The translations under genes and the position numbers were made by a program. 64,000 nucleotides of DNA from Myxococcota bacterium (GTDB lineage Bacteria; Myxococcota_A; UBA9160; UBA4427). This document shows positions 37,630-63,688 of this stretch, piece after piece. The DNA is taken from contig JASMLK010000055.1 in the NCBI GenBank assembly GCA_030748735.1, positions 1 to 64,000 on the forward strand. Reading direction: 5' to 3'. The first letter of the stretch is position 1. Each line of letters starts with the position of its first letter. The notes beneath the pieces are model-generated. The model did not search any database. It saw nothing but the letters and a program-made list of their open reading frames with translations, and had not been told where the DNA came from.

Positions 37630-38739
37630 GTGCGTGTCGCAGTGGTGCACGACTGGCTGACGGGATGGCGGGGAGGCGAACGCGTCCTCGAGCAGATCCT
37701 GTTGCTCTATCCGGACGCGGATCTGTTCACCCTGATCCACCTTCAGGGGTCGGTACCGGCATCGCTCGAATCGCGGCGGATTCGCGTGTCGCCCTTGTCG
37801 CGACTTCCGGGCGTTGGCCGCTACTACAGGGCGCTCTTGCCCTTGTTCCCGTGGGCGATCCGTCGCTTCGATCTCTCGTCCTACGACCTTGTCATTTCGT
37901 GTAGTCACGCAGTTGCGAAGAGTGTGCGCACGGGACCCGACACGGTGCACGTGAGCTACTGCCTCACGCCCATGCGGTACATCTGGGACCAGGCGGATGC
38001 CTATCTCGGTCGGGGACTGCGCCGTGCGCTCGTGACCCCTCTCGTGCGAGCCTTGCGGCGGTTCGATCGCGCCACCAGTGGCCCCGACGACGTGACCGCC
38101 TTCATCGCGATCTCGTCTACGGTGCGCGATCGCATCGCGCGCGCGTACGAGCGCGACGCTTGTGTCGTGTATCCGCCGGTCGACACGGACGCCGTGACGC
38201 ATGCGGCGGCCTCGTGCGACGTCCCCGGCCCCTTTTACCTGCTCGTGGGAGGCTTCGTCCCCTACAAACGCGAGGCGCTCGCAATCGACGCCTTCCGCGG
38301 TCTCGACCGCAGCCTGGTCGTCGCAGGCGACGGTCCGCTGCGCGAACGCCTCGAAGTCGGTGCGCCGGACAACGTGCATTTCGTCGGCCGGGTACCCGAC
38401 GCGGAACTCCACGCGCTTTACCGCGACTGCCGAGCGTTGATCTATCCCCAGGAAGAAGACTTCGGAATCATCGCCGTGGAAGCCCAGGCAGCCGGCTCTC
38501 CAGTCATCGCCTACCGGGGCGGGGGCGCACTCGACACGGTGCGCGTACCTGAGGGTGGCGAGTTCTTCGAGGCCCACACGACGGCCTCGCTCCGCGCAGC
38601 CATCGACCGCTTCGAAGCCCGCGAAGCGGACTTCGACGGCGCCGAACTCCGCGGCTGCGCCCAGGGCTTTTCGATTCCCCAATTCAGACAGCAGTTTGCG
38701 CGAACATTGGAGAAGTTACTCGACGCTGAGGCAGGATAG
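37630..38739 (+). CDS. GT4-family glycosyltransferase
   Basis: GT-B fold retaining glycosyltransferase of 369 residues. The N-terminal domain starts RVAVVHDWLTGWRGGERVLE, typical for O-antigen/capsule mannosyl- and rhamnosyltransferases (WbaZ-like). The C-terminal donor domain shows LLVGGFVPYKREALAIDAF, VVAGDGPLRERL, VHFVGRVPDAELHALYRDCRALIYPQEEDFGIIAVEAQAAGSP, which is the EX7E region for nucleotide-sugar binding. Start GTG 37630. Donor and acceptor are unknown. Together with the epimerase at 26692 and the sugar-phosphate transferase at 41893 it suggests dispersed surface-glycan genes. Confidence 0.88.
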   Translation: MRVAVVHDWLTGWRGGERVLEQILLLYPDADLFTLIHLQGSVPASLESRRIRVSPLSRLPGVGRYYRALLPLFPWAIRRFDLSSYDLVISCSHAVAKSVRTGPDTVHVSYCLTPMRYIWDQADAYLGRGLRRALVTPLVRALRRFDRATSGPDDVTAFIAISSTVRDRIARAYERDACVVYPPVDTDAVTHAAASCDVPGPFYLLVGGFVPYKREALAIDAFRGLDRSLVVAGDGPLRERLEVGAPDNVHFVGRVPDAELHALYRDCRALIYPQEEDFGIIAVEAQAAGSPVIAYRGGGALDTVRVPEGGEFFEAHTTASLRAAIDRFEAREADFDGAELRGCAQGFSIPQFRQQFARTLEKLLDAEAG

Positions 38740-38783
38740 GCGCTGCAACCCCCGCCTTCGACACTCCTGCTGTCGCCGCGACT

Positions 38784-41663
38784 TCAGATCTTCGCGACTT
38801 CGACCCGGGTATCGCGATCCGTATGGCTCGGTTGCAGGCATAGGATCATCGGCCGCAGGTGGAACTGGCCGCCGGCCAACTCCACGGGGTTGAGGGGGGT
38901 GGGGATCAGGTTCTGGTACCCCTTCCCGTTCTTGAACTGGAAGTTCTCCCAGGCGTGATAGAGCAAGAGCTGACCGGGGCGCACCGATGGAGAGCGCTTG
39001 ATCATGATCTCGAACTCGTCGATGTCGTTGTGCACGCGGACGCGATCACCGTCTGCGATCTCGCGCGCATCGGCGTCTTCCGCCGACATCCACATGCAGG
39101 GCTCGCCGCGTTGTTGCTGCAACATCAAGGCATCGTCACGCCACGAGGCGTGAATGCTCCAACGCGTATGGCCACCCGTGAGCGTGAGCGGGTAGTCGCC
39201 TCCTGCGGGCAGTGGGTCTTTATGGGTTGGGAGTGATTCGCCCATCTCGAGGTAGAGCTCTTGATCGAGATAGAACTGGATTCGACGTGAGAGCGTGGGG
39301 TACGGGACCTTGTCGAAGACGTGGTGCTCGAAAGGCGTAATCGTGTCGTCGGGCTCGATCTCGGACTGGTTTCCGTACGCGGTAGGGAGCGTCCCCCAGT
39401 CGGTGAACCGCGCCCAGCCCTTCTTCTTCAACTCTTCCCACTCGAGGCCGTCGAGATTCGACGCGAGTTCGAGCAGGCGCTTCGCAACCTTGTCGTCGTC
39501 GGTGTGCCCATACGCACCGTTCGAAGAAAAGCGCTCGTAGATGTCGTGCAGGGGCCGCTCGTCCCCGTGGCGATCCACGAACGAATCGATGCCGCGACGC
39601 TTTGCGCGTCGTGCCACGGCCTCGGTGAGGCGCGAGATGATCTCCCAGTCGCTCTTCGCCTCGTAGTAGCTGACAGCCTTCTCCGTGCTGTGGATGTAGG
39701 GCATCAGCGCCGTCGTCCACTTGTGCTCGTCGCGCTCGTACCAGGCCGCAGCAGGCAACACGTAGTCGGATTGGAGTGCCGTGGAACTCATGCGGAAGTC
39801 GAGCGTCACGACGAGATCGAGCTTGGGCCACAGGTGCTCGAGAACGAGTGGATAGGACCGAATCCGGCGCAGTGGATTGCCCCCCAGCACGAAAAGGGCC
39901 TTTGGATCGTCGCCGGGTTTCGGCGTGACGCGCTGCCAGCCCTTCGAAAGCGACTCTTCCAGGACCTCGCGAATGGGCCTGGTGAGATGGGGATCCCATT
40001 CGTGGAGCTTCTCGCTCGCATGGAGCAGTCCGCCATGCACGTACCAGAAGAGTGCCGACGATCCACCCATGCGCCCCTGTTCGCTGAGCCTGCGCATGTG
40101 CTCGTAGGCGATCATCTCCTCCGAGTAGCCCTCCCAGCGTCCTCGCAGTTCGTCGCGCACCTGATCGCCGATCACGCCCAGCGCGGTGGTGTTCATCATG
40201 TCAGCGACCGAGAACATCTCACGCGTGAAGGGTTCGAGGCTGTCGGTCGTGAGATGGGGGAAGCCGCCGATGCCGCTGCCCTTCTTGCCGAAGTTGCCCG
40301 TGAGCGCGAACACCAGCGCTTGACCGCGCTCCATCAGGTTGCCGTGGTAGTACTTCGCCATGTTGCTCGTCGTGACCATCGACATCGCCCGGGCGTCGGC
40401 GATTTGTGCGGCGAGTTTCCGGATCAGCGGCGCGGGCGTCCCGCAGATGGCCGCGGCCTTCTCTGGCGTGTAGTCGGCGAGCTGCTCGCGCAGCCGGGTG
40501 AAGACGGTGCGGACGCCGATCTTGCGCCCGTCCTTCGACGTCACGTCGAAACGCCCCTCGAGTTCGGGCTGCAGTCCTTCGAGCGCGAGGCTGCGGCGCG
40601 GCGCGGGCACGAGACCGCGGGCCGCGTCGTGGAGGAAGAGTTCCTCATCGTCCCCACCCTGCTCGAGATCAGACGCGCGCAGGTAGCGGTCGTCGTCCTC
40701 GCGAACGAGCAGAGGCAGGTCGGTCTGCTCTACCACGAAGTCGCGGTCGATGAGATTCTGCTCGATCAGGACATGCGCAATCGAGAGGGCGAGCGCTGCA
40801 TCGCAGCCTGGCTTCACCGGTACGTAGAGGTCGGCATGAATGCTCGAAGCGCTGTAGTCGGGCGCGATGCAAACGATGCGCGCCCCCTTGTAGCGCGCCT
40901 CGATCATGAAATGCGCGTTGGGGATCTGGGTGTAGATGGGATTGCCACCCCAGATCAGGATCAAGTCGGAGAAGAAGAAGTCGTCCGCAGAGCGTTCGAA
41001 GACGATCTTGCCGAAGGTTTCGGCGGCGCCTCGACGCCCGTCGCCGATCTCGGTGTTCACGTCGAGGGCTGTCATGTCGAGCAGGGTCGTCATGCGCTGA
41101 TGTGCCGCGCTCTGCGTGCCCATGCTGTAGAGGGGCCCGATATCCCAGACGACTCGATCCGAGCCGTGCTCCTTCAAGGTGTCGAGAATCTGGTCTGCGA
41201 TCTCGTCGACCGCCTGCTCCCACGAGATCCGCTTCCACTTGCCGGAGCCTCGCTCTCCGACGCGCTTCAGCGGATGACGGACGCGAGACGCGTCGTACAT
41301 CCGCTCGCTGAAGCAGCCCCCCTTCTGGCAGCCGCGCGGATTGAAGTCCGGAACATCGGGGCGGACCTGGGGGTAGTCGGCGGCCTGCTCTTCGCGCCAG
41401 ACGATCCCGTCCTTCACGAACACGTTCCAGCTGCAGTTCGCCTGATACCAGCAGTTCATCAGATGCGTGCCGCGAACGACGCGGTCCCACTTCCAGCGCT
41501 GGCGATAGATGTCGCGCCAGTCGTCGTAGGACACCGGGTCGAACCACCCAGCGGCGGCTCGCTCGGGCGTCAGCGTCAGACGGGGCAACCCGAGTGCGAG
41601 TCCCGCCCCACCGGCGGCGAAGTTCTGCAGGAAGCGGCGGCGGGTGACCTGGGATCGATCCAA
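38784..41663 (-). CDS. Molybdopterin oxidoreductase catalytic subunit, type II DMSO reductase family, no partner subunits nearby
   Basis: About 959 residues. The N-terminus has a twin-arginine signal (RSQVTRRRFLQNF then AAGGAGLALG), so it is exported folded with bis-MGD. Likely FS0 cluster ligands are His67, Cys71, Cys77 and Cys112 (THLMNCWYQANCSW, then RGCQKG). The spacing between the second and third ligand is two residues longer than in NarG. The His plus long insert points to the type II group: ethylbenzene dehydrogenase, steroid C25 dehydrogenase, dimethylsulfide dehydrogenase, perchlorate reductase. Start TTG 41663 is chosen because GGAGG lies 7 nt upstream and the twin-arginine signal begins at once; an ATG at 41747 would add 28 odd residues. 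No Fe-S beta subunit, heme gamma subunit or chaperone adjoins. Substrate unknown. Confidence 0.87.
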   Translation of the reverse strand: MDRSQVTRRRFLQNFAAGGAGLALGLPRLTLTPERAAAGWFDPVSYDDWRDIYRQRWKWDRVVRGTHLMNCWYQANCSWNVFVKDGIVWREEQAADYPQVRPDVPDFNPRGCQKGGCFSERMYDASRVRHPLKRVGERGSGKWKRISWEQAVDEIADQILDTLKEHGSDRVVWDIGPLYSMGTQSAAHQRMTTLLDMTALDVNTEIGDGRRGAAETFGKIVFERSADDFFFSDLILIWGGNPIYTQIPNAHFMIEARYKGARIVCIAPDYSASSIHADLYVPVKPGCDAALALSIAHVLIEQNLIDRDFVVEQTDLPLLVREDDDRYLRASDLEQGGDDEELFLHDAARGLVPAPRRSLALEGLQPELEGRFDVTSKDGRKIGVRTVFTRLREQLADYTPEKAAAICGTPAPLIRKLAAQIADARAMSMVTTSNMAKYYHGNLMERGQALVFALTGNFGKKGSGIGGFPHLTTDSLEPFTREMFSVADMMNTTALGVIGDQVRDELRGRWEGYSEEMIAYEHMRRLSEQGRMGGSSALFWYVHGGLLHASEKLHEWDPHLTRPIREVLEESLSKGWQRVTPKPGDDPKALFVLGGNPLRRIRSYPLVLEHLWPKLDLVVTLDFRMSSTALQSDYVLPAAAWYERDEHKWTTALMPYIHSTEKAVSYYEAKSDWEIISRLTEAVARRAKRRGIDSFVDRHGDERPLHDIYERFSSNGAYGHTDDDKVAKRLLELASNLDGLEWEELKKKGWARFTDWGTLPTAYGNQSEIEPDDTITPFEHHVFDKVPYPTLSRRIQFYLDQELYLEMGESLPTHKDPLPAGGDYPLTLTGGHTRWSIHASWRDDALMLQQQRGEPCMWMSAEDADAREIADGDRVRVHNDIDEFEIMIKRSPSVRPGQLLLYHAWENFQFKNGKGYQNLIPTPLNPVELAGGQFHLRPMILCLQPSHTDRDTRVEVAKI

Positions 41664-41770
41664 GACGGCGCCTCCGCTGAAAACCAGGAGACGGGGACCA
41701 ACGCGAACGCGCTGCGCACTCCCCCGCCAGTCGACACAAACATTCATCCGAGCAATGCGTGCTCGAAATA

Positions 41771-41799
41771 GAACTAACGTTCGTTCACCGTGCGGTCAA
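41771..41799 (-). promoter_or_regulatory. Candidate promoter with TetR-type operator for the molybdoenzyme
   Basis: A 16-bp near-palindrome GAACTAACGTTCGTTC (14 of 16 positions symmetric) at 41771-41786. On the minus strand TTGACC (41799-41794) stands 17 nt before TAGTTC, so the dyad would cover the spacer and -10 box. The form is typical of TetR/FadR-like operators. No TetR gene is in the window. Confidence 0.45.
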
Positions 41800-41872
41800 G
41801 TGACAGGTGGCCTCAGGATGTGCCAGTAGGAGCCACACGGTCGATCGGTGCGCGGTTTCGGTTCTCGCCGGG

Positions 41873-41896
41873 CTAGAGGCCCGGCCGGGCCTCTAG
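41873..41896. other. Perfect 24-bp palindrome containing the stop codon of the sugar-phosphate transferase gene
   Basis: CTAGAGGCCCGG followed directly by its reverse complement. The minus-strand stop TAG of the gene at 41893 lies in the outer arm. No T-run follows on the minus strand, so a classical terminator is doubtful. Confidence 0.7.
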
Positions 41897-43296
41897 TACG
41901 CGTTCGGGTCGGCGATCCCTCGCCAGAGCGTGCGGATCAGGATCCGGACATCGAGCCCCAACGACCAATGCTGGATGTAGTAGAGGTCGTGCTCGATGCG
42001 GTCGGGCAGCGAGGTGTTGCCGCGCCAGCCGTGGATCTGTGCCCAGCCCGTCATGCCCGCCTTCACCTTGTGGCGAAGCATGTAGCCGGGGATCTCACTG
42101 CGAAACTGTTCGATGAAGACCGGCCGTTCGGGGCGCGGGCCCACGAGGCTCATCTCCCCTTTGAGGACGTTCCAGAGCTGTGGCAGTTCATCCAGACTGA
42201 AGCGGCGCAGGAAGGCACCGAAGCGCGTGCGCCGTGGGTCTTCGCGCTCGGTCCACACGGGCCCGGAGGCACTTTCGGCTTCAGGCTTCATGGTGCGGAA
42301 CTTCAACATCAAAAAGACGCGACCATCGAGGCCCATCCGCTCCTGCTTGTACAAGATCGGTCGACCATTCGTGATCGCGATCGTGCCCGCGATGAGCGCC
42401 ATCAGTGGTGCTGCAACGACCAGCGCCAGCGCGCCGGCGACGACGTCGAAGATGTGCTTCGCGATCGCCGCCCAACCGAGCAGCGGTGTTTCGCGCAGGT
42501 TGATGACCGGGAGCCCATCGAGGTTCTCGACGGAACTTCGCAAGGTGAGCGCGTGCAGGACGTCGGGCACGAGGTTCACGTTGACAACCTCGTCGTCGAG
42601 GTCGGCGAGCAGCTTTTCGAGTGAATCCGCCTCGTTGCGATCGAGCGCCAGGATCACCTGATCGACCCGATCCTCCTCGTTGCGCACGAGCCCCTTGAGT
42701 GCCCCGTAGTTGCCGACGACCGGCACCCCGCGCAGCGAGCCTTGCGTGCCTCCGCCCTCGGTGAGTACGCCGCGCACGCGCAAGCCCGTACCCGGCTGGC
42801 TGCGGATGCGGTCGAGGATCTCCCCCGCGAGCGCGCCCCCGCCGACCACCAGCACGTAGCGAAGGTTGTACCCCCGCTGGCGCATGGCCCGGAGCCCGGA
42901 ACGCACACCCACGCGCAAGGCGATGATCGATACCGGAGCCAATACGGCAAACAGCGCCACGACACCGCGCGAGTAGAAGTATCCGCCCGCGAAGAAGTTG
43001 AGCGCAACGAGCCCCACGATCGCCGTCGCGGCCACGCGAAGGATGCGCCCGGCTTCGGTCAGCAGCGAGCCGATTCGCTGGGGTTGATAGAGGCCGTGTC
43101 CGTAGAGCAGCGCGAACCAGACGGGCAGGATCGGGAGCAGCGCTTCGAGGTAGAGCGAGAACTCGGGGACGCCCCTGCTGACCGGAAAGCCGGTGTGAAA
43201 GCGAAACGCGTAGGCAGCGCACCATGCCGCGGCGACGAGCACGAGATCTGCAGCGCAGATCAACGTGCGAAAGACTTCGCTGTAGCGGTAGAGCAT
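41893..43296 (-). CDS. Undecaprenyl-phosphate glucose/sugar phosphotransferase (WcaJ-like)
   Basis: Polyprenyl-phosphate hexose-1-phosphate transferase that starts exopolysaccharide repeat units at the inner membrane. About four N-terminal membrane helices (residues 10-130). A central Rossmann-like CoA-binding-type domain (LRYVLVVGGGALAGEILDRI) follows. The C-terminal catalytic domain has KHIFDVVAGALALVVAAPLM (re-entrant helix), YKQERMGLDGRVFLMLKFRTM, RRFSLDELPQLWNVLKGEMSLVGPRPERP and AGMTGWAQIHGWRGNT. These are the usual signatures. Length is 467 residues. No polymerase or flippase (wzx/wzy) is adjacent. Confidence 0.95.
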   Translation of the reverse strand: MLYRYSEVFRTLICAADLVLVAAAWCAAYAFRFHTGFPVSRGVPEFSLYLEALLPILPVWFALLYGHGLYQPQRIGSLLTEAGRILRVAATAIVGLVALNFFAGGYFYSRGVVALFAVLAPVSIIALRVGVRSGLRAMRQRGYNLRYVLVVGGGALAGEILDRIRSQPGTGLRVRGVLTEGGGTQGSLRGVPVVGNYGALKGLVRNEEDRVDQVILALDRNEADSLEKLLADLDDEVVNVNLVPDVLHALTLRSSVENLDGLPVINLRETPLLGWAAIAKHIFDVVAGALALVVAAPLMALIAGTIAITNGRPILYKQERMGLDGRVFLMLKFRTMKPEAESASGPVWTEREDPRRTRFGAFLRRFSLDELPQLWNVLKGEMSLVGPRPERPVFIEQFRSEIPGYMLRHKVKAGMTGWAQIHGWRGNTSLPDRIEHDLYYIQHWSLGLDVRILIRTLWRGIADPNAY

Positions 43297-55085: not shown

Positions 55086-55787
55086 ATGGCTGAGCTGCTC
55101 AAGATGGGTGAGCTGGCGGCGCGAACCGGCGTCGAAAAGAGCACCATTCAGCACTATCTGCGAGAGGGGCTGCTGCCGGGCCCCGCGCATCGCCCGCATC
55201 GCAACATGGCCTACTACAGCGCCGACCTCGTCGAGCGGATCGGACTGATCCGCGAGCTTCAGACCCGGCGCAGCCTGTCCCTCGCCCGCATTCGAGACCT
55301 GCTGGCCGACCATCAGAGCCTCGACGCGGTGCGCCGCTGGCTGGATCAACAGGAGCTCAACATCGAGCCGTCCGCTCGCCCTGTCGGTCGCAAGGCGCTC
55401 CGGCAGGAGACGGGGCTCCGGCCCGAGGAGCTCGAGCGTCTCGAGGCGCTCGGCTTCGTGCGACCGCGCAAGCAGGGACGAGGTGTACGCTACTCAGCGA
55501 CCGATTCTGCGACCGTGCGCTCGGTTGGGGCGATGCGCCGCGCCGGCTTGAACGAGGAGAACGGCTTCGAGCTCGAGCACATGGCCATCTATCTCGACTC
55601 CATGCGCCGTTTGCTCGCGGAGGAGCTCGACCTCTTCTCCAGCGTTCTCGGCAAGGCATCGCGGAGCCAGACCATCGCGTTGGCCGAGGCCGGGCTGGAG
55701 GGAACGAGCGCCCTACTCGTCGCGCTGCGCCGGCGAGTGATCATGGATCTGCTCGAGGACGCCGAGGGCCGGGAAGAGATCGAATGA
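55086..55787 (+). CDS. MerR-family regulator with two helix-turn-helix units
   Basis: 233 residues. The first winged helix (about 5-75) is canonical: LKMGELAARTGVEKSTIQHYLREGLLPGP, MAYYSADLVERIGLIRELQ. A second MerR-like unit follows at about 98-150: ALRQETGLRPEELERLEALGFV, then RPRKQGRGVRYSATDSATVR and GAMRRAGL. The C-terminal helices could dimerise. There is no metal-binding cysteine. Its stop overlaps the aldehyde dehydrogenase start (ATGA), so it heads the catabolic operon. A dyad in its promoter and the same dyad before the FAD genes suggest it controls both. Confidence 0.88.
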   Translation: MAELLKMGELAARTGVEKSTIQHYLREGLLPGPAHRPHRNMAYYSADLVERIGLIRELQTRRSLSLARIRDLLADHQSLDAVRRWLDQQELNIEPSARPVGRKALRQETGLRPEELERLEALGFVRPRKQGRGVRYSATDSATVRSVGAMRRAGLNEENGFELEHMAIYLDSMRRLLAEELDLFSSVLGKASRSQTIALAEAGLEGTSALLVALRRRVIMDLLEDAEGREEIE

Positions 55788-57277
55788 GCGCGGCCGAGCG
55801 GACGAGCGAGGCCCATGCACAGGCCGCCAGGGAGATCGGCCTGGAGCGAGCACCGAAGATGTGGATCGACGGCATCTCGACGGGCGCCATGGACGGCGCA
55901 TGCTTCGCCACGTTCGATGCGACGACCGGGGAGGAACTCGCCCAGCTTCCGGCGGCCAGTGAGTCGGACGTCGATGGGGCGGTCCGGGCGGCCCGGCGCG
56001 CATTCGAGCAGACCGACTGGCATCGAAACTCGACGCTGCGTGCGCGAACGCTCCAGAGCCTGGCGCGGCTGGCCAAGCGCGATCGCGACCATATTGCCCT
56101 GCTCGATTGCCTCGAGGTGGGAGCGGTACGCGGCATCGCCCGGCGTCTCGGCGCCCAGGCGCTGGTGCGCAATCTCGAGTACTTCGCGAGCTGGGCGGAC
56201 AAGATCTACGGCGAGGTGGTCCCCGTGCCCTCGGGACGGGTGCTCGACTATGCACGCCGCGAGCCCTATGGCGTCGTGGCGGCGATCACTGCGTGGAACA
56301 CACCCGCCCTCTTCGTCGGCAGCAAACTCGGCCCGGCGCTCGCGGCGGGCAATACAGTGGTGCTCAAGCCTTCGGAGTTCGGCTCGTTGTCGGCGCTGCA
56401 CTTCGCGAAGCTCTGCGCTGAGGCTGAGATTCCGCCCGGCGTCGTGAACATCGTGAGCGGAGGCGCGGCCACCGGCGAGGCGCTGATCCGCCATCCCGAC
56501 GTCGCGAAGATCACCTTTACTGGCGGCACGGGTACCGGCAGGCGAATCCAGGCCGCAGCGGCCGACAACCTCGTCCCCGTACATCTGGAACTCGGTGGCA
56601 AGTCGCCGCACGTCGTGCTTGCCGACGCCGATCTCGACCAGGCCGTGGGCGGGGTAATCGCAGGCGGATTCGGCCTCAGCGGCCAGACCTGCGCAGCTGG
56701 AAGCCGGCTGATCCTGCAACGCGAGATCCACGACGCGTTCCTCGAAAAGCTCAGCGATGCGGTGTCGATGCTCTCGATCGGCGACCCGCTCGACCCCAAG
56801 ACCTTCCTCGGCCCGCTGATCCACGAGCAGCATCTCGAGCGTGTGCTCGGCTACGTGGCTTCCGGAATCGCGGAAGGTGCAGAGCTCGTTGTTGGCGGTA
56901 AGCGCGCCGAGTTCGCAGGGCCCTTCATGCAGGCCACGCTCTTCAGCGGCGTCGAATCGGAAATGCGGATCGCGTGTGAGGAGATCTTCGGCCCCGTGCT
57001 CTCCGTCATGTGCGTCGAGGACGCGGAGCAAGCAGCACGCGTCGCAAACGAGACGCGCTATGGGCTCGGCGCCGGGATCTGGACTCGCGACGTGAAGACA
57101 GCGCTGCGTTTCGCGGAGAGCGTTCGCGCAGGAAACGTCTGGGTCAACCAGTACGGCAGCCTGCCGCACACTGTGCCCTTCGGCGGCTATGGCCATTCCG
57201 GACAGGGACGTGAGGGAGGCCGGCAGGCCCTCGAAGAGTACACACAGATCAAGAACGTGAGCATCGACCTCGGGTGA
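55784..57277 (+). CDS. NAD(P)-dependent aldehyde dehydrogenase
   Basis: 497 residues, a normal length. Catalytic Asn in the AWNTPALF region, NAD-binding FTGGTGTGRRI, general-base Glu in LELGGKSPHVVLADAD, nucleophilic Cys in FGLSGQTCAAGSRL, and EEIFGPVLSVM. C-terminal GNVWVNQYGSLPHTVPFGGYGHSGQGREGG belongs to the betaine/aryl-aldehyde group of class I-like enzymes. It oxidises an aldehyde to the acid in the cytosol, plausibly the product of the following alcohol dehydrogenase. Substrate not readable. Codon use leans to GAG, unlike the housekeeping genes left of 51.5 kb. Confidence 0.95.
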   Translation: MSAAERTSEAHAQAAREIGLERAPKMWIDGISTGAMDGACFATFDATTGEELAQLPAASESDVDGAVRAARRAFEQTDWHRNSTLRARTLQSLARLAKRDRDHIALLDCLEVGAVRGIARRLGAQALVRNLEYFASWADKIYGEVVPVPSGRVLDYARREPYGVVAAITAWNTPALFVGSKLGPALAAGNTVVLKPSEFGSLSALHFAKLCAEAEIPPGVVNIVSGGAATGEALIRHPDVAKITFTGGTGTGRRIQAAAADNLVPVHLELGGKSPHVVLADADLDQAVGGVIAGGFGLSGQTCAAGSRLILQREIHDAFLEKLSDAVSMLSIGDPLDPKTFLGPLIHEQHLERVLGYVASGIAEGAELVVGGKRAEFAGPFMQATLFSGVESEMRIACEEIFGPVLSVMCVEDAEQAARVANETRYGLGAGIWTRDVKTALRFAESVRAGNVWVNQYGSLPHTVPFGGYGHSGQGREGGRQALEEYTQIKNVSIDLG

Positions 57278-57317
57278 CGCACGTGAGAGACGAGAACAGC
57301 GATCGCGACGAGACGGG

Positions 57318-58421
57318 ATGAAGAGTATGCGCGGTGCGATCCTTCGCGACTTCGATGCAAAGCTCGAGATCGTCGACCTCGAGCTCGAAGCGCCCAGAGC
57401 GGGCGAGGTCAAGATCGACGTCGTCGCCAGTGGGCTATGCCGCAGTGACCTCTCCTGTATCAACGGCACCTTGAAGTCGCCGATGCCTGTCGTGCTCGGA
57501 CACGAGGCCGCCGGCATCGTATCGGAGCTCGGCGAGGGCGTGAGCAACCTCGCGGTCGGCGACGCGGTGGTCGTGGCCCTCAGCCCGGCCTGCGGTGACT
57601 GCCTCTTCTGCAACGAAGGGGCACCCAATCGCTGCCTGAAGATGATCCCCGGTATGATCGGTTCCACCATGCTCGATGGCAGCACGCGGCTCAGCCTCGG
57701 CGGCGAGCAGGTCTACCAGCTATGTGGCGTGGCTTCCTTCGCGGAGCAGGCCGTCGTCTGCGCGATGTCCTGTGTGAAGGTGGGCGACACGGTTCCTCTC
57801 GAGCAGGCCTGCCTGCTCGGCTGCGGGGTACTGACGGGCGCGGGCGCAGCGTTCAATACGCCGGAGATCGGTCCGGACGTGTCCGTTGCGGTCATCGGCT
57901 GCGGCGGCGTGGGCCTCGCCGCCATCCAAGGCGCTCGGATCGAGGGGGCCGCCCAGATCATCGCCGTGGATGTCGACCCCGCGAAGCTCGAGCTCGCCAA
58001 GGTGCTCGGCGCGACCCAAACGGTCGACGGCGGCGGCGATGTCCGGAAGGCGATTCGCAAAGCAACTGGCCTCGGCGTGCACGTCTGCATCGAAGCCATC
58101 GGGCACGTGTCCACGATCGAGACCGCGTGGGAGGTGCTCCGTCCCGGTGGCCTCGCCGTGGTCATCGGCATGCCGCGCGCGGGTGAGAAGATCCCGATTC
58201 GAGCGGGGGGGTTGTTCCAGGAGCGGCGCATGGCGGGATGCGTATACGGCGGTGCCGATCCCCATCGCGACATCCCGCGCGTGCTCGAGCATGTGGGCCG
58301 CGGCGAGTTCCAGCTCGATCGAATGATCACCGAGGAGCTGCCGCTCGAACGAGTTCAGGAGGCGATCGACTCGCTCGCGGCCAGTCACGGTGCGAGGCAC
58401 GTCATCGTCCCTCGGAGCTGA
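57318..58421 (+). CDS. Zinc-dependent alcohol dehydrogenase (MDR family)
   Basis: 367 residues. Catalytic zinc ligands: Cys in GLCRSDLS, His in LGHEAAG, and a third Cys in LLGCGVLTG. Structural zinc lobe: CGDCLFCNEGAPNRC, all four cysteines. NAD-binding VAVIGCGGVGLAAIQGARI with IIAVDVDPAKLELAK, where Asp prefers NAD. The pattern matches the class III-like/aryl-alcohol dehydrogenase group (AdhC). It lies 40 bp after the aldehyde dehydrogenase, suggesting an alcohol to aldehyde to acid sequence. ATG 57318 is used; an ATG three codons later is possible. Confidence 0.95.
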   Translation: MKSMRGAILRDFDAKLEIVDLELEAPRAGEVKIDVVASGLCRSDLSCINGTLKSPMPVVLGHEAAGIVSELGEGVSNLAVGDAVVVALSPACGDCLFCNEGAPNRCLKMIPGMIGSTMLDGSTRLSLGGEQVYQLCGVASFAEQAVVCAMSCVKVGDTVPLEQACLLGCGVLTGAGAAFNTPEIGPDVSVAVIGCGGVGLAAIQGARIEGAAQIIAVDVDPAKLELAKVLGATQTVDGGGDVRKAIRKATGLGVHVCIEAIGHVSTIETAWEVLRPGGLAVVIGMPRAGEKIPIRAGGLFQERRMAGCVYGGADPHRDIPRVLEHVGRGEFQLDRMITEELPLERVQEAIDSLAASHGARHVIVPRS

Positions 58422-58484
58422 GCACCTTCCTACCCTACCGATGAACCAATCGAGACCCAATCAAGAGACGGACAGGAGAAGATC

Positions 58485-59537
58485 ATGAGGTTTGGAATGC
58501 TGCACCTCTTCGAGAGCCCAGAGGGCCGTAGTGAAGCACAGATGATCGACGAGCAACTCAGCCTGATGGAGGCCGCGGAGGAGTACGGATTCGATTCCCT
58601 CTGGCCCGCCGAGCACCACTTCACCGAGTACGGCGTCTGTGGATCCCCGGCCCTGAACCTCGCGGCCATCGCGCGAACGACCAGGAAGATCCGCCTCGGC
58701 ACCGGCGTGTGCGTGCTGCCACTCCACAACCCCATCCGGGTGGCGGAGGACTTTGCCATGCTCGACCAGATGTCCGGAGGCCGCGTCGACTTCGGAGTTG
58801 GCCGCGGCTATCAGCCCATCGAGTTCCAGGGCTTCGGCGTCGATCAGACGCGGAGCGCCAAGATCTTCGACGAGAGCCTCGAGATCATCCGGCGCGCCTG
58901 GACCGAAGAGAAGCTGAACTTCGAGGGCGAGTTCTTCCAGTTCAAGGACCTGGAGATTCGACCGCGCCCCCTGCAGGACCCGCACCCCCCGATCTGGATG
59001 GCGGCGCTCTCCCAGCAGACGTTCGAGAAGGCCGGCCGGTTGGGCTTCAACCTGCTGCTCTCACCGGTCTTCGGTGGCTCGCTGCAGGCCGCGCGCGACA
59101 ACATCCAGCGTTATCGACAAGCGCTGGCGGACAACGGCTTCGACCCGGCGAGCCGCCAGGTGGGCGCGCTGACGATGATGTTCGCGGGCAAGTCCCACGA
59201 GGAGGCGCGCTCGCAGTTCGCAGAGCCGGTCATCTGGTACTTCCGCACATTCGGGAAGTTCGTCGCACCGAAGGTCGGCCAGCCCCCGATCCAGGGCTAC
59301 GAGTGGTACACCGACATTCGCGATCTGGCGAGTGTCGTCGAGTGGGAGACGCTCATCGAGCACGGCGCCGTGATCTGCGGCGAGACGCCTTACGTAATCG
59401 AGAGGCTCCAGGAGATGAAGGAGATGACGGGCATAGACCATCTGCTCGGGTGGACCCGACTCGGTGGTCTTTCCGACGACCTCGTCACATCTCACATGGA
59501 GCTCATGCGCGACGAGATCATGCCGGCGCTGCGATGA
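58485..59537 (+). CDS. LLM-class flavin-dependent oxidoreductase (luciferase-like monooxygenase)
   Basis: 350-residue TIM-barrel protein using FMNH2 or F420. Visible: MRFGMLHLFESPEG, YGFDSLWPAEHHF, IRLGTGVCVLPLHNPIRVAEDFAMLDQMSGGRVDFGVGRGY, and PPIWMAALSQQTFEKAGRLG. The AEHHF and GRGY motifs are typical of bacterial-luciferase-like monooxygenases. AGGAGA precedes the ATG. The stop overlaps the next gene (ATGA). In a pathway with acyl-CoA dehydrogenases it may insert oxygen or act as a reductase; substrate unknown. Confidence 0.92.
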   Translation: MRFGMLHLFESPEGRSEAQMIDEQLSLMEAAEEYGFDSLWPAEHHFTEYGVCGSPALNLAAIARTTRKIRLGTGVCVLPLHNPIRVAEDFAMLDQMSGGRVDFGVGRGYQPIEFQGFGVDQTRSAKIFDESLEIIRRAWTEEKLNFEGEFFQFKDLEIRPRPLQDPHPPIWMAALSQQTFEKAGRLGFNLLLSPVFGGSLQAARDNIQRYRQALADNGFDPASRQVGALTMMFAGKSHEEARSQFAEPVIWYFRTFGKFVAPKVGQPPIQGYEWYTDIRDLASVVEWETLIEHGAVICGETPYVIERLQEMKEMTGIDHLLGWTRLGGLSDDLVTSHMELMRDEIMPALR

Positions 59538-60643
59538 TCGACTTCGAGATCGGCGACGAACTCGAGCTCGTGCGAGCCACTGCGCGCGAGTTCGCGGACG
59601 ACCATCTCAGGCCGACGCTCCGGCAACACGAGTCGACGCGCGCGCTCTCGGATGCGACGCGCGCCGCCTTCCGAGACATCGGCTTCGCGACGCTCGAGTG
59701 GCCCGAGTCACTGGGGGGCAGCGGTCTCGGCGGTCTCGCCCGCTTCATCGTGCTTGAGGAGCTTGCGGCGGCCGACCCCGGCGCGACCCTTGCGCTCGAT
59801 CCCCTGGGCCCTGCCCTCTACGCCCTGGTCGAGTGCGGCGGCGAAGCGGCGCTCGAACGCTTCGGCACGCCGCTCGCAGACGGCGAGACCGCCCGTTCCG
59901 TGCTGGTGTGGTGTGGCGAAGGGTGCCGCGCCAAGCTCGAATTCGGCGATGACGCGGTCAGCGGCGCGATCCCCTGGCTGCCCGCCGATGCAGCGGCGCA
60001 ACTCGTGCTGCTCGACGCCGATGGCGCACACGTGGTGAGCGAGGGCTTTACGCTCGAGCCCGCCCGCGGAGCCGGGCTGCGCGCTGCGGGGGCGGCGAGC
60101 GTCACGCTCGACCGGGCCCCAATCGCGGCCAGCTATCCAGGTGGCGAGGCTGCGGCGCGCGCGGCGGCGCGCGGGCGTCTGTACACCGCCGCCATGCTGG
60201 TCGGCATCGCGCGAGAATCGGCGGATTACTCGCGCGCCTACGCACTGGATCGAGTCACCTTCGGCAAGCCCATCGCCCACCATCAGGCGCTGGCCTTTCT
60301 CATCGCCGACATGGCGACGGCGACGGACTCGGCGCGGCTGGCGGGCTGGGACGCCGCGTGGCGGCTCGATTCGGGCCATGGGGCCGAGGAGGCCTGCGCC
60401 ACGGCTTTCATCGAGGCCGCGGAGCAGGCCATGTATGTCACACCCAATGGCGTACAGATCCTGGGTGGCCATGGATTCATGCAGGACCACCCCGTGGAAA
60501 AGATGATGCGCGAGGCACGTGCGCTCTCGCTCCTTTTCGGTGGCGTCGACGCCGCTCGCAACACGGCGATCTCTGAGCTGATCGAGAGCGACGGACCGGT
60601 ACAGCTCACGTGGGAGGCCCCTGATGCGGGTCGAACTGGATGA
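59534..60643 (+). CDS. Acyl-CoA dehydrogenase-like subunit 1 (no catalytic Glu, lacks TEPxxGSD)
   Basis: 369 residues with ACAD fold. Normal N-terminal helices (EFADDHLRPTLRQHE, IGFATLEWPESLGGSGLGGLARFIVLEELAAADPG). The middle beta-domain lacks the TEPxAGSD flavin/substrate motif. The C-terminal domain keeps the cofactor-contact motif RVTFGKPIAHHQALAF and QILGGHGFMQDHPVEKMMREAR. The site of the usual catalytic YEGT reads FGGV. It is therefore probably inactive alone and pairs with the product of the next gene, as in the alpha2beta2 FadE/ChsE pairs of steroid side-chain degradation. Overlaps upstream LLM gene (ATGA) and downstream gene (20 bp). Confidence 0.92.
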   Translation: MIDFEIGDELELVRATAREFADDHLRPTLRQHESTRALSDATRAAFRDIGFATLEWPESLGGSGLGGLARFIVLEELAAADPGATLALDPLGPALYALVECGGEAALERFGTPLADGETARSVLVWCGEGCRAKLEFGDDAVSGAIPWLPADAAAQLVLLDADGAHVVSEGFTLEPARGAGLRAAGAASVTLDRAPIAASYPGGEAAARAAARGRLYTAAMLVGIARESADYSRAYALDRVTFGKPIAHHQALAFLIADMATATDSARLAGWDAAWRLDSGHGAEEACATAFIEAAEQAMYVTPNGVQILGGHGFMQDHPVEKMMREARALSLLFGGVDAARNTAISELIESDGPVQLTWEAPDAGRTG

Positions 60644-61835
60644 AGCCACACGCAGGCGCGTCGAGGGGATCCGGATGCTGGGCCGGGCCCAGGTCCGCCC
60701 GCTCGGTCTCGAGGCCGATCGCCTGGGCCGCCCCATACCCCCGGACCACGAATTCTTCGAGTTGCTCCTGAAGATCGGACAAGGGCGGACCCGTTGGAGC
60801 GGCGAGCAGGATCCCGCTGCGGAACCCGCTGCGAGAGACGAGAGTGACAGGCCCGAGTTGAAGGCGACCATCGGTACCTCCCGCGCGCTGCTGGCGGTCG
60901 CAGAAGAACTCTCGTATTGGGATCGCGGTGTCGCGGTCTCGCTCCCGGGCCCCGGGCTCGGCGAGCCGCCGATCATCGGCATGGGAACGCCGGATCAGAA
61001 GGAGCGCTTCCTCCGCCCCTTCATCGATCCGGGAAAGCCGCGCTGGGGATCCTTCGCAATGACGGAGCCGGGCGCGGGCTCCGATGTCGCCGCGATCCGT
61101 ACGGTGTGTCGCAAGGACGGCGACCACTGGGTTCTGAACGGGGCCAAGTCGTTCGCCGCCAATGCATCGCGCGCCGACTGGATCCTGGTCTGGGCGACGA
61201 TCGACCGGAACCTCGGGCGAGAGGGACATCGCGCCTTCGTTATCGAGCAGGGTACCCCGGGCCTCGGCGACTTCCACGTCGAGAAGAAGATGGGGCTCAA
61301 GGCCTATGAGTCCACCTCATTTACCATGCGCGACTGCCGCGTGCCCGCAGACAGCTTGCTGGGTAGCGACGAGCACTACGCTCGAAAGGCGGGATTCAAG
61401 GGCGCGATGAAGTCCTTCAACTCCACCCGTCCTCTGGTCGCAGCGATGGCGGTCGGCATGGGACGGGCCGCGTTCGACGAGGCGCTTGCTTTCGCCAAGG
61501 AGCAGGATCTGCTGGGAGACGTCCGCGTCCGTGATCGCCTCGAGCGGATTCGCCGTCGGCTGCGCGTAGCACGCCTGCTCTGCTGGCGTGCCGCATGGCT
61601 CGCCGACCACAGCCGGCCGAACATCGTCGAGGCGTCGATGTCCAAGGCGGTGGCCCCGGCCGTCGCGCTCGAGGCCGCTAGCCTGGGGATGGAGTTGCTC
61701 GGAGAGGTGGGTGCGAGAGGCGAACACCTGATCGAAAAGCTCTTTCGCGACGTCAAGGCAATGGACATCGTGGAGGGCACGGGGCAGATCCAGCGCATCG
61801 TCATGGCCCGGCAACTCGTTCAGCTGCCTCGGTAG
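60624..61835 (+). CDS. Acyl-CoA dehydrogenase-like subunit 2 (carries TEPGAGSD and catalytic Glu)
   Basis: 403 residues. The beta-domain has the complete flavin/substrate motif FAMTEPGAGSD and the following WVLNGAKSFAANASRADWILVW. The C-terminus has the catalytic glutamate in VEGTGQIQRIVMARQL. The RxxFGxxIxxxQ cofactor motif is missing: the site reads EQDLLGDVRVRDRLERI. The QxxGGxG motif is degenerate (LLGEVGARGEHL). These are exactly the parts present in subunit 1, implying one FAD site per heterodimer. GGGAGG lies before the ATG, which is inside the end of the previous gene. Confidence 0.93.
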   Translation: MRVELDEATRRRVEGIRMLGRAQVRPLGLEADRLGRPIPPDHEFFELLLKIGQGRTRWSGEQDPAAEPAARDESDRPELKATIGTSRALLAVAEELSYWDRGVAVSLPGPGLGEPPIIGMGTPDQKERFLRPFIDPGKPRWGSFAMTEPGAGSDVAAIRTVCRKDGDHWVLNGAKSFAANASRADWILVWATIDRNLGREGHRAFVIEQGTPGLGDFHVEKKMGLKAYESTSFTMRDCRVPADSLLGSDEHYARKAGFKGAMKSFNSTRPLVAAMAVGMGRAAFDEALAFAKEQDLLGDVRVRDRLERIRRRLRVARLLCWRAAWLADHSRPNIVEASMSKAVAPAVALEAASLGMELLGEVGARGEHLIEKLFRDVKAMDIVEGTGQIQRIVMARQLVQLPR

Positions 61836-61847
61836 GGGCTTGGCATG

Positions 61848-61865
61848 ACGTCCGTACCAGGACGT
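61848..61865. other. Small hairpin after the acyl-CoA dehydrogenase operon
   Basis: ACGTCC, 6 nt, GGACGT, 13 bp after the stop of the second dehydrogenase. No T-run, so a weak candidate terminator or a binding site. Confidence 0.3.
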
Positions 61866-61976
61866 TGAGCCAGAACGCAGCTTGAATGCCTCCTTCCATG
61901 GGGTCGAAGCGGCCCCCTCCCAGCCACTTTTTCTAGGCCGGTATGACGGCGATCATACGTCTTCCCGATTGTGCAG

Positions 61977-62001
61977 AGTAACAAGTGCTACATCGCACTT
62001 T
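61977..62001. promoter_or_regulatory. Second copy of the MerR-type operator, before the FAD oxidoreductase pair
   Basis: AGTAACAAGTG (61977-61987), 8 nt, CACTT (61996-62000), identical in sequence and spacing to the block at 55006. The dyad CAAGTGC, 6 nt, GCACTTT is 6 of 7 paired. It ends 22 bp before the ATG at 62024, so binding could block transcription or the leader. Confidence 0.7.
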
Positions 62002-62023
62002 GTGCAAATCGGAGGATCGCAGC

Positions 62024-63688
62024 ATGGCCAGGAACTTCGACGTAATCGTGGTGGGGGCTGGAATCAATGGACTCGCCTGCGGGGCCTACCTCGCCAAGGC
62101 CGGCCTCGAGGTAGCCGTCGTCGAGGCGCGGAACGAATGCGGACCGTTCGCGCTGACGGAGGAGATTTTCGGCGGGGGCGTTCCCATCGACACCCACGCG
62201 GGTGTCTGCTTCGTCACGATGAGCCCTGCACTGGGAGAGCTGGAACTCGATCGCTTCGGACTCGACCTGATCCTGCCCAGGGTGCCGACCGGAACCGTCT
62301 CCAAAGACGGCACCAACGTGCTCTACTACACCGATCTCGACCGAACCTGTGCCGAAATCGCCCGCTTTTCGGAGCGCGATGCCAAAGCCTATCGGAGATT
62401 GCGCGAGAGCGTAATGAAGAACGCGGTCGAGATGCTCGAACGGGGCGTCTTCAGCGCACCGTCGGCTGAGGGGCTCGAGTACCTCTGGAGCCTGGGAAAA
62501 CTGGTCGGATTCTCTCCTGAGGATTTCCGCACCATGAATGGTTTCGAGCTACTCGACCTGCTCTTCGAGAACGAAAAGGTCAAGTGTTCCCTGCTCGGCC
62601 AGGCCGCCATTGGAATCTTCGGGGATCCCGCGGAAAAGGGCGAGGGATCTCTAATGACCGTGCTTGGCCAGACCAGCTCCTTCGGTGTTCCCAGAGGGGG
62701 AATGCACAATCTGGTGCATGCCCTGGTTCGCTGCTTTCGACACTACGGCGGAACGCTCCTGCTGAATGCGCCAGTCGAGCGAGTGGAGTTCGAGGGGGGA
62801 CGTCCGAGCCTGGTTCATCTCGCCGAACACTCCCCAATCCCCGAGAAGACGCTTCGCTCACGCCAGGCCACGGTGATTCACGTCAGCCCACCTGTCGCGT
62901 TGCAGATCCTCGATTCCGAGGAACTCGAGCGACATGATCCCAATCTCTTGCGCAAAATGAAGGACTGGGACATGACCGGCCATTGCGCCTTCACTTCCTA
63001 CGTTCTCCTCAAGGGCGCTGCACAGTGGAGCTCGCGGACCTGGAACCCGGACATCCAAGAGTGCGCATTTCCGTTGCGCGCATGGGACTCGTGGGATCAC
63101 GCCAAGAGCTCATTCCAAACGGCGAAGAACGAGGAGATCTTCGGCGTGGCAGGTGATGTGGGCGAGATCTATCACCTGAGTTCCGTCGACCCATCGCGGG
63201 TTCCGGCCGACGGCAGGACAGCGCTCGTCTACGAGGTCGAATACCCGGTGAACATGCGCCGCTACGGGGGACTCTCGGCCTGGGACGATCGGGAGATCAC
63301 CGATCGGCTGCACGAGAGTCATCTCCAGGATCTACGCGATATGCTCGACGACTTCGACGCGGAGCTCATCGACTCCACCTATTTCACCCCGATCGACAAT
63401 TGGCGTCGCAACCCATCCGCAATTCTCGGGCATGAGCTCGGTGGAGATGTGAGCGGTCCGCAGTGGTACGAGGGTCGCATGCCCAATCGATCTTCGATCG
63501 AAGGGCTGTACTTCACCCAGGGCGTCTGGCCGTGTTCGCTCACCCATCTCGGCAGCGCTTACGTAACGGCATGCGCGATCGCGGATGACCTCGGCGTCCG
63601 CGATCAAGCGTGGTGGAAGAATCGCCCCATGCAGCGGTACATGGAGTTGATGCGCGAAGGCAGCATGAACGTGGAGGTTACACCATGA
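62024..63688 (+). CDS. CrtI-like FAD-dependent oxidoreductase 1 (phytoene desaturase family)
   Basis: 554 residues. The N-terminal dinucleotide-binding motif is VIVVGAGINGLACGAYLAKAGLEVAVVEAR. FGVPRGGMHNLVHALVRCFRHYGG is the CrtI-family middle signature. The C-terminal FAD loop is GLYFTQGVWPCSLTHLGSAYVTA. Family members desaturate or isomerise hydrophobic polyenes and related lipids, but many have unknown substrates. No phytoene synthase or other carotenoid gene is in the window. GGAGG at 62011 fixes the start at ATG 62024. The stop overlaps the next gene (ATGA). Confidence 0.92.
   Translation: MARNFDVIVVGAGINGLACGAYLAKAGLEVAVVEARNECGPFALTEEIFGGGVPIDTHAGVCFVTMSPALGELELDRFGLDLILPRVPTGTVSKDGTNVLYYTDLDRTCAEIARFSERDAKAYRRLRESVMKNAVEMLERGVFSAPSAEGLEYLWSLGKLVGFSPEDFRTMNGFELLDLLFENEKVKCSLLGQAAIGIFGDPAEKGEGSLMTVLGQTSSFGVPRGGMHNLVHALVRCFRHYGGTLLLNAPVERVEFEGGRPSLVHLAEHSPIPEKTLRSRQATVIHVSPPVALQILDSEELERHDPNLLRKMKDWDMTGHCAFTSYVLLKGAAQWSSRTWNPDIQECAFPLRAWDSWDHAKSSFQTAKNEEIFGVAGDVGEIYHLSSVDPSRVPADGRTALVYEVEYPVNMRRYGGLSAWDDREITDRLHESHLQDLRDMLDDFDAELIDSTYFTPIDNWRRNPSAILGHELGGDVSGPQWYEGRMPNRSSIEGLYFTQGVWPCSLTHLGSAYVTACAIADDLGVRDQAWWKNRPMQRYMELMREGSMNVEVTP

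Follow-up and report, generated by a model that had tools for sequence, protein, structure and literature searches.

A probable molybdenum hydroxylase alpha subunit gene in a sugar-transferase locus: an orphan in its window, with candidate partner subunits elsewhere in the genome

The window, meaning the whole 64-kb stretch of DNA that was analysed, carries a complete frame of 959 codons on the minus strand, running from a TTG start at 41663 to a stop at 38784 exactly as originally predicted. This gene (hereafter the window alpha) has a sugar transferase gene on one side and on the other a glycosyltransferase gene, past which lies a Lon protease gene (Pfam). The features of the locus are as follows.

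37630–38739, plus strand: glycosyltransferase, the left neighbour (Pfam; syntenic in loci L199 and L200); a flank, outside the enzyme
38740–41892, no strand: 3,153-bp segment that two genomes of the same genus lack at this junction (synteny comparison)
38784–41663, minus strand: catalytic alpha subunit of the type II DMSO-reductase family of molybdenum enzymes (EbdA/S25DH group), 959 aa, TTG start (domain and ligand matches)
41606–41663, minus strand: N-terminal Tat (twin-arginine) signal, TRRRFL from residue 7 (by inspection; extent approximate)
41770–41787, no strand: imperfect 18-bp palindrome TGAACGAACGTTAGTTCT, a putative operator common to a pair of orphan alphas on contig C58 of the source genome (genome scans)
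41893–43296, minus strand: bacterial sugar transferase, the right neighbour (Pfam; syntenic in L199 and L200); a flank, outside the enzyme

The window alpha is preceded by GGAGG seven bases before the TTG, and an in-frame ATG lies further upstream at 41747. Its protein has the Pfam domains Molybdopterin and Molydop_binding and matches the NCBIfam model TIGR03479 over positions 1–912 of 913 (945 bits, E 4.2e-284), short of the model cut-off of 984.75 bits. Two S25DH-type alphas from the Sterolibacterium-like genome G041 likewise miss this cut-off with scores of 917 and 921, and the cut-off thus excludes this subgroup. The EbdA equivalog NF042978 gave 712 bits against a cut-off of 2000, and the NarG model of NCBIfam 306 bits. 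By sequence, the closest solved structure was EbdA (2ivf; 676 bits, residues 8–958), while 5e7o/4ydd, which I take to be the perchlorate reductase PcrA, shared the type II alpha fold with 521 bits, below the EbdA score and matched in three separate stretches. The family assignment of the original prediction was therefore borne out, and so was its claim that the twin-arginine signal and the cluster ligands are intact: His67, Cys71, Cys77 and Cys112, presumably the Fe-S cluster ligands, align with EbdA H82, C86, C92 and C127, and Asp208, presumably the Mo ligand, aligns with EbdA Asp223. Lys450 of EbdA is also kept as Lys437, in contrast to EbdA His192 and Trp481, which are replaced by Leu178 and Phe468, and Asp485, which falls on Thr473 in a gapped region. 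In frame, Tat motif, cluster ligands and Mo-Asp the gene is intact.

Comparison with other genomes of the same genus showed that the window alpha and its upstream region are the sole content of the 3,153-bp segment. In G411 and G409 the genes for Lon, glycosyltransferase and sugar transferase follow one another in the same order, as do further genes, and the gap between the two transferases is 14 bp in G411 and 33 bp in G409 (measured between tblastn hit ends); in G411 the stop codons of the two convergent genes run into each other. A third genome, G410, was uninformative on the junction since it gave no sugar transferase match at E <= 1e-60. The G+C content of the segment is 63.8%, with 66.5% and 64.8% on the flanks. 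Gain of the segment in the line of the window would be the simpler reading of this comparison, although loss in G411 and G409 is possible. Ends of a mobile element were looked for and rejected, as the left-end 110 and right-end 80 bases share no direct or inverted repeat of at least 7 bases. A perfect 12-base inverted repeat (CTAGAGGCCCGG/CCGGGCCTCTAG, no spacer) was seen at 41873–41896, where it overlaps the sugar transferase gene at its end.

Enzymes of this kind work with further subunits, and the original prediction had called the window alpha an orphan. Locally this held: tblastn with five beta, four gamma and three chaperone queries from the source genome (E <= 1e-8) found no match in the 64-kb window, and a partner hidden there was rejected. 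The picture differs for the genome as a whole (assembly of 5.08 Mb, 94.8% complete), whose contigs are named here C45, C58, C74, C88, C126, C138, C157 and so on, the window alpha being on C55. A search with TIGR03479 returned 14 near-full-length alphas (799–956 bits), four on C45, three on C126, two each on C74 and C58, and one each on C157, C88 and C55. Betas over the family cut-off number six (C45, C126, two on C74, C88 and C157), a count that may be low because near-identical copies can collapse in metagenome assembly; a weaker beta match lies at C45:86669, and a fragmentary one on C58 about 70 kb from the alpha pair of that contig. Gamma (EB_dh) matches were found on C45 (two genes), C157, C74 and C126, with larger frames on C138, and four chaperone matches on C126, C45 (two) and C74. 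The window alpha is consequently not a subunit lacking partners in its genome. A whole-genome search had been proposed at the outset, with partner genes elsewhere in clear co-evolution with the alpha as the finding that would count against an orphan; the first half of this, the presence of beta and gamma genes elsewhere, was obtained.

Eleven of the 14 alphas lie between 51 bp and 5.9 kb from a beta over cut-off, and the three with no such beta on their own contig are the window alpha and the C58 pair. C126_30444, the closest source-genome relative (71% identical to the window alpha), and C45_70334 (67%) lie 195 bp and 69 bp from a beta, respectively. The betas of C45 and C126 are 73–74% identical to the beta of G041, and the other four 53–63%. 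Inside the alpha-gamma-beta cluster of C45 there is also a gene of the MobB family (molybdopterin guanine dinucleotide synthesis; L072 10489–11112, C45:67988), and beside this main cluster lies a second, more distant set of alpha, beta, gamma and chaperone (L073 5539–12066, C45:82939–89466).

A scan of the genome collection for relatives of the window alpha gave 17 loci, from Deltaproteobacteria, Myxococcota, Proteobacteria, unclassified metagenome genomes, Gammaproteobacteria/Pseudomonadales/Halioglobus and Thauera terpenica. Alpha matches in 14 of the relatives' genomes (that of L060 left out) numbered at least 27, 19, 15, 13, 10, 10, 8, 7, 7, 5, 2, 2, 1 and 1, all lower bounds that include fragments, and beta matches in the same genomes 1 to 8 each, again possibly too few in metagenome assemblies. 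The largest alpha families, some of their members being fragments, were those of G003 (L057 and L204; at least 27 alpha vs 4 beta matches), G012 (at least 19 vs 3), G004 (at least 15 vs 6) and G007 (at least 13 vs 5). In the window's own taxonomic family, 5 of 30 genomes, the source genome included, have alphas at this level; one of three other same-genus genomes has at least two and the other two have none.

Most of the window-type relatives examined sit beside a beta, mostly in gamma-beta-alpha operons. The set of gamma, beta, alpha, often an S25DH-type alpha, and chaperone recurs whole or in part around window-type alphas at L056, L060 to L065 and L067, and in C45 and C126 of the source genome. 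L057 is a second window-type orphan, with no beta, gamma or chaperone in 22.9 kb and an AMP-binding ligase gene after the alpha. At L071 there is no beta in the 6 kb before the alpha, and the loci L055, L058 and L059 are truncated by the end of their contig.

For the tree, 170 blastp-matched frames were reduced to 146 (more than 500 bits, more than 600 residues spanned) and, after removal of duplicates, to 102, which together with EbdA were placed with FastTree; the root was put on L140 by choice, and the tree holds neither a named CmdA nor 5e7o/4ydd. The window alpha falls in a clade (support 1.00) with C126_30444 and proteins of the relatives, and the adjoining group contains C45_70334. With the alphas of G041 as anchors, this clade is separate from those of the S25DH and S26DH alphas. 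S25DH-type alphas of the source genome are C45_73186 and C126_27559, and S26DH-type ones C88_17143 and C58_90308; C74_31535 sits beside the eighth alpha of G041, and it is the C157 alpha, not the window alpha, that is sister to EbdA.

The anchor genome G041 fits Sterolibacterium denitrificans and is taken to represent it; the S25DH and S26DH labels on its individual alphas are putative in the same way. It has 8 alphas, of which four show 70–82% mutual identity, a pair of identical betas, and gammas that agree at 99.5%, to be compared with the 8 alphas, 72–82% identity and 99% identical beta-gammas published for S. denitrificans (PMC6016249). The window alpha is 38–41% identical to the S25DH-type alphas of G041, 35–36% to the S26DH-type and 48% to the eighth alpha.

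The 18-bp palindrome upstream of the window alpha links it to the C58 pair. Its first 17 bases were scanned with up to 5 mismatches against 14 upstream sequences of alpha clusters in the source genome, and only those of the window and C58 matched. The symmetrised 18-mer with up to 3 mismatches occurs at 7 places in the source genome, compared with 1 for a control in which the pattern was read backwards, and the only two places with 2 mismatches are the window site and a site between the divergent C58 alphas. The other five, each with 3 mismatches, were treated as chance because four fall within called genes (one on C5, two on C72, one on C121) and the fifth overlaps a gene start (C132). Among 98 alpha upstream regions from several genomes, three have 2 mismatches and these are exactly the three orphans of the source genome, the next best having 5; none of 1,960 shuffles fell below 4 mismatches, statistics that flatter these sites because the pattern was built with the window and C58 sites already in view.

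Across 12 genomes, 22 places with up to 3 mismatches were found, against 8 for the control, and 10 of the 22 were examined for context. The one other place with fewer than 3 mismatches is in G013 (1 mismatch), about 80–90 bp before an orthologue (84%) of the C58 flavoprotein FAD584. G014 has a 3-mismatch site flanked by an orthologue (74%) of the C58 flavoprotein FAD527 on one side and a gene resembling the 132-aa gene of C58 (65%) on the other; an alpha with 74% identity to C58_90308 follows two genes later. A G004 site lies between TetR-looking and SDR-looking genes (by eye) and not at an alpha, and three of the 12 genomes (G005, G006 and G012) have such alphas and no site with up to 3 mismatches.

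The C58 cluster itself includes the two orphan alphas, CrtI/CrtO-like flavoproteins and a CoA-ligase-type gene. FAD527 and FAD584 match CrtO/CrtI-type models far below the cut-offs and are 27% identical to each other; the two subunits of the delta-24 sterol desaturase are 26% identical (PMC11061730). FAD527 carries GFLHNTHA, which fits the flavin consensus given for this desaturase in the same paper, and FAD584 has GVRIYPHA, which does not fit it strictly. One TetR_N protein was confirmed some 14.6 kb away from the palindrome on C58 (L206). Inspection by eye of the gene lists, most of which had no Pfam run, showed no TetR-like start adjoining the window or C58 site. A scan for sigma-70 promoters found none, and terminator-like sites numbered 2 against a shuffle mean of 1.8. 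The palindrome may be the site of a regulator that controls the window alpha together with C58. Such co-regulation does not point to a partner, since C58 itself has no beta.

The explanation I favour, about as apt to be right as wrong and built on sequence comparison, is that the window alpha is a dispersed, co-regulated catalytic subunit that uses a shared beta-gamma pair, probably for sterol side chains. The enzyme to which it belongs would be a molybdenum hydroxylase of the EbDH/S25DH group that needs no molecular oxygen, with a sterol or similar isoprenoid side chain as its likeliest substrate, hydroxylated with oxygen from water. The gene may have reached this locus on a segment that carried nothing else but its upstream region, and may be co-controlled with the C58 cluster through the common palindrome. 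Since no gene for a beta, gamma or chaperone accompanies it, the protein would take up its fold in the cytoplasm together with a beta-gamma pair and a chaperone encoded elsewhere; those of the C45 or C126 cluster are the likeliest candidates because their operons hold the closest source-genome relatives of the window alpha. The folded complex would then be exported as a whole by Tat, and electrons would pass from Mo to the Fe-S cluster of the alpha, along the Fe-S chain of the beta and on to the heme of the gamma.

An excess of alphas with sharing of partners is already known as a proposal for S. denitrificans, which has fewer beta-gamma than alpha genes and whose S25DH1 is composed of alpha1, beta3 and gamma3 (PMC6016249). 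Its S25DH1–4 and S26DH1–3 belong to the same alpha family, and G041 contains two S25DH-type alphas (L174 and L175) that, like the window alpha, have no neighbouring partners, with no beta, gamma or chaperone in 18 kb around each. These orphan alphas of G041 agree with the sharing proposed in that paper, and the window alpha is a case of the same kind. Unlike S. denitrificans, the source genome has 14 alphas, a palindrome common to its orphans and an insert in a sugar-transferase locus. Two findings go beyond the original prediction: the segment occupies a junction left almost without spacing in G411 and G409, and three orphan alphas have a palindrome in common.

A less probable alternative also has shared partners and differs in the substrate, which would be a hydrocarbon or terpene resembling p-cymene or ethylbenzene. 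The sister clade of the window-type alphas (support 1.00) is betaproteobacterial and includes an alpha from Thauera terpenica (L134, the same place as L104); EbdA and the p-cymene dehydrogenase CmdA are characterised relatives, CmdA belonging to the same Asp-ligated group as S25dA and EbdA (PMC10100899); and the nearest characterised enzyme to the delta-24 desaturase family is limonene dehydrogenase (PMC11061730). A sterol is nevertheless favoured by the window-type alpha sharing an operon with an S25DH-type alpha in several relatives, C45 and C126, and by the palindrome, which ties the window alpha to an S26DH-type alpha and to a flavoprotein with the sterol-desaturase motif.

It is improbable that the window alpha is a diverged copy without its former partners, on its way to becoming a relic. 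Of 349 residues that the other 16 clade members all share, 18 are changed in it, the second highest number of the 17 and a possible sign of relaxed constraint, with some of the changes next to a cluster Cys and the Mo-Asp, and the tree shows no close orthologue of it (branch 0.29). Against this, the features of an intact gene set out above extend to the ribosome-binding site, the third-position G+C of 0.83 is of the coding type, and the upstream palindrome has been kept. It is very improbable that the window alpha works wholly on its own, dispensing with a beta-gamma and handing its electrons to an unrelated carrier, for the three source-genome alphas with no beta on their contig and the orphan at L057, with none in about 20 kb, are set against the rule that most window-type relatives adjoin a beta and against preliminary experiments in which alpha1 alone gave no soluble or active protein (PMC6016249).

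Returning to shared partners, the sharing proposed for one betaproteobacterium may extend to a deltaproteobacterial and Myxococcota family with at least 27 alpha matches in one genome. I consider a broader version of this doubtful: a plug-in system in which a few beta-gamma-chaperone sets accept many exchangeable alphas, as the counts in G003 might suggest, some alphas settling in unrelated loci as single-gene segments that bring the common operator, and each gain thereby placing one more oxygen-free C-H hydroxylation under control already in place for sterol side chains. No report of an S25DH-like expansion in Myxococcota or of such a palindrome was found in titles and abstracts, subscription journals being mostly outside reach. 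Myxococcota A genomes are named as having many annotations of this kind in a study of Baltic benthic samples, in which ebdA and cmdA are among the ten most abundant hydrocarbon genes, and the subunit arrangement is not described in the accessible part of that paper (PMC12529799). The common palindrome provides a handle for sorting which uncharacterised alphas act together. If confirmed, the alphas described here would be candidates for hydroxylating sterol side chains without oxygen and would show modular assembly of redox enzymes in nature.

Further along C55, some 14–22 kb from the window alpha, the stretch 55784–63688 encodes an aldehyde dehydrogenase, a zinc alcohol dehydrogenase, a luciferase-like monooxygenase, an acyl-CoA dehydrogenase and a flavoprotein 32% identical to FAD527 of C58. 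Beyond the window, at about 65.2–65.7 kb of C55 (L079 1234–1701), lies a homologue (62%) of the 132-aa protein of C58.
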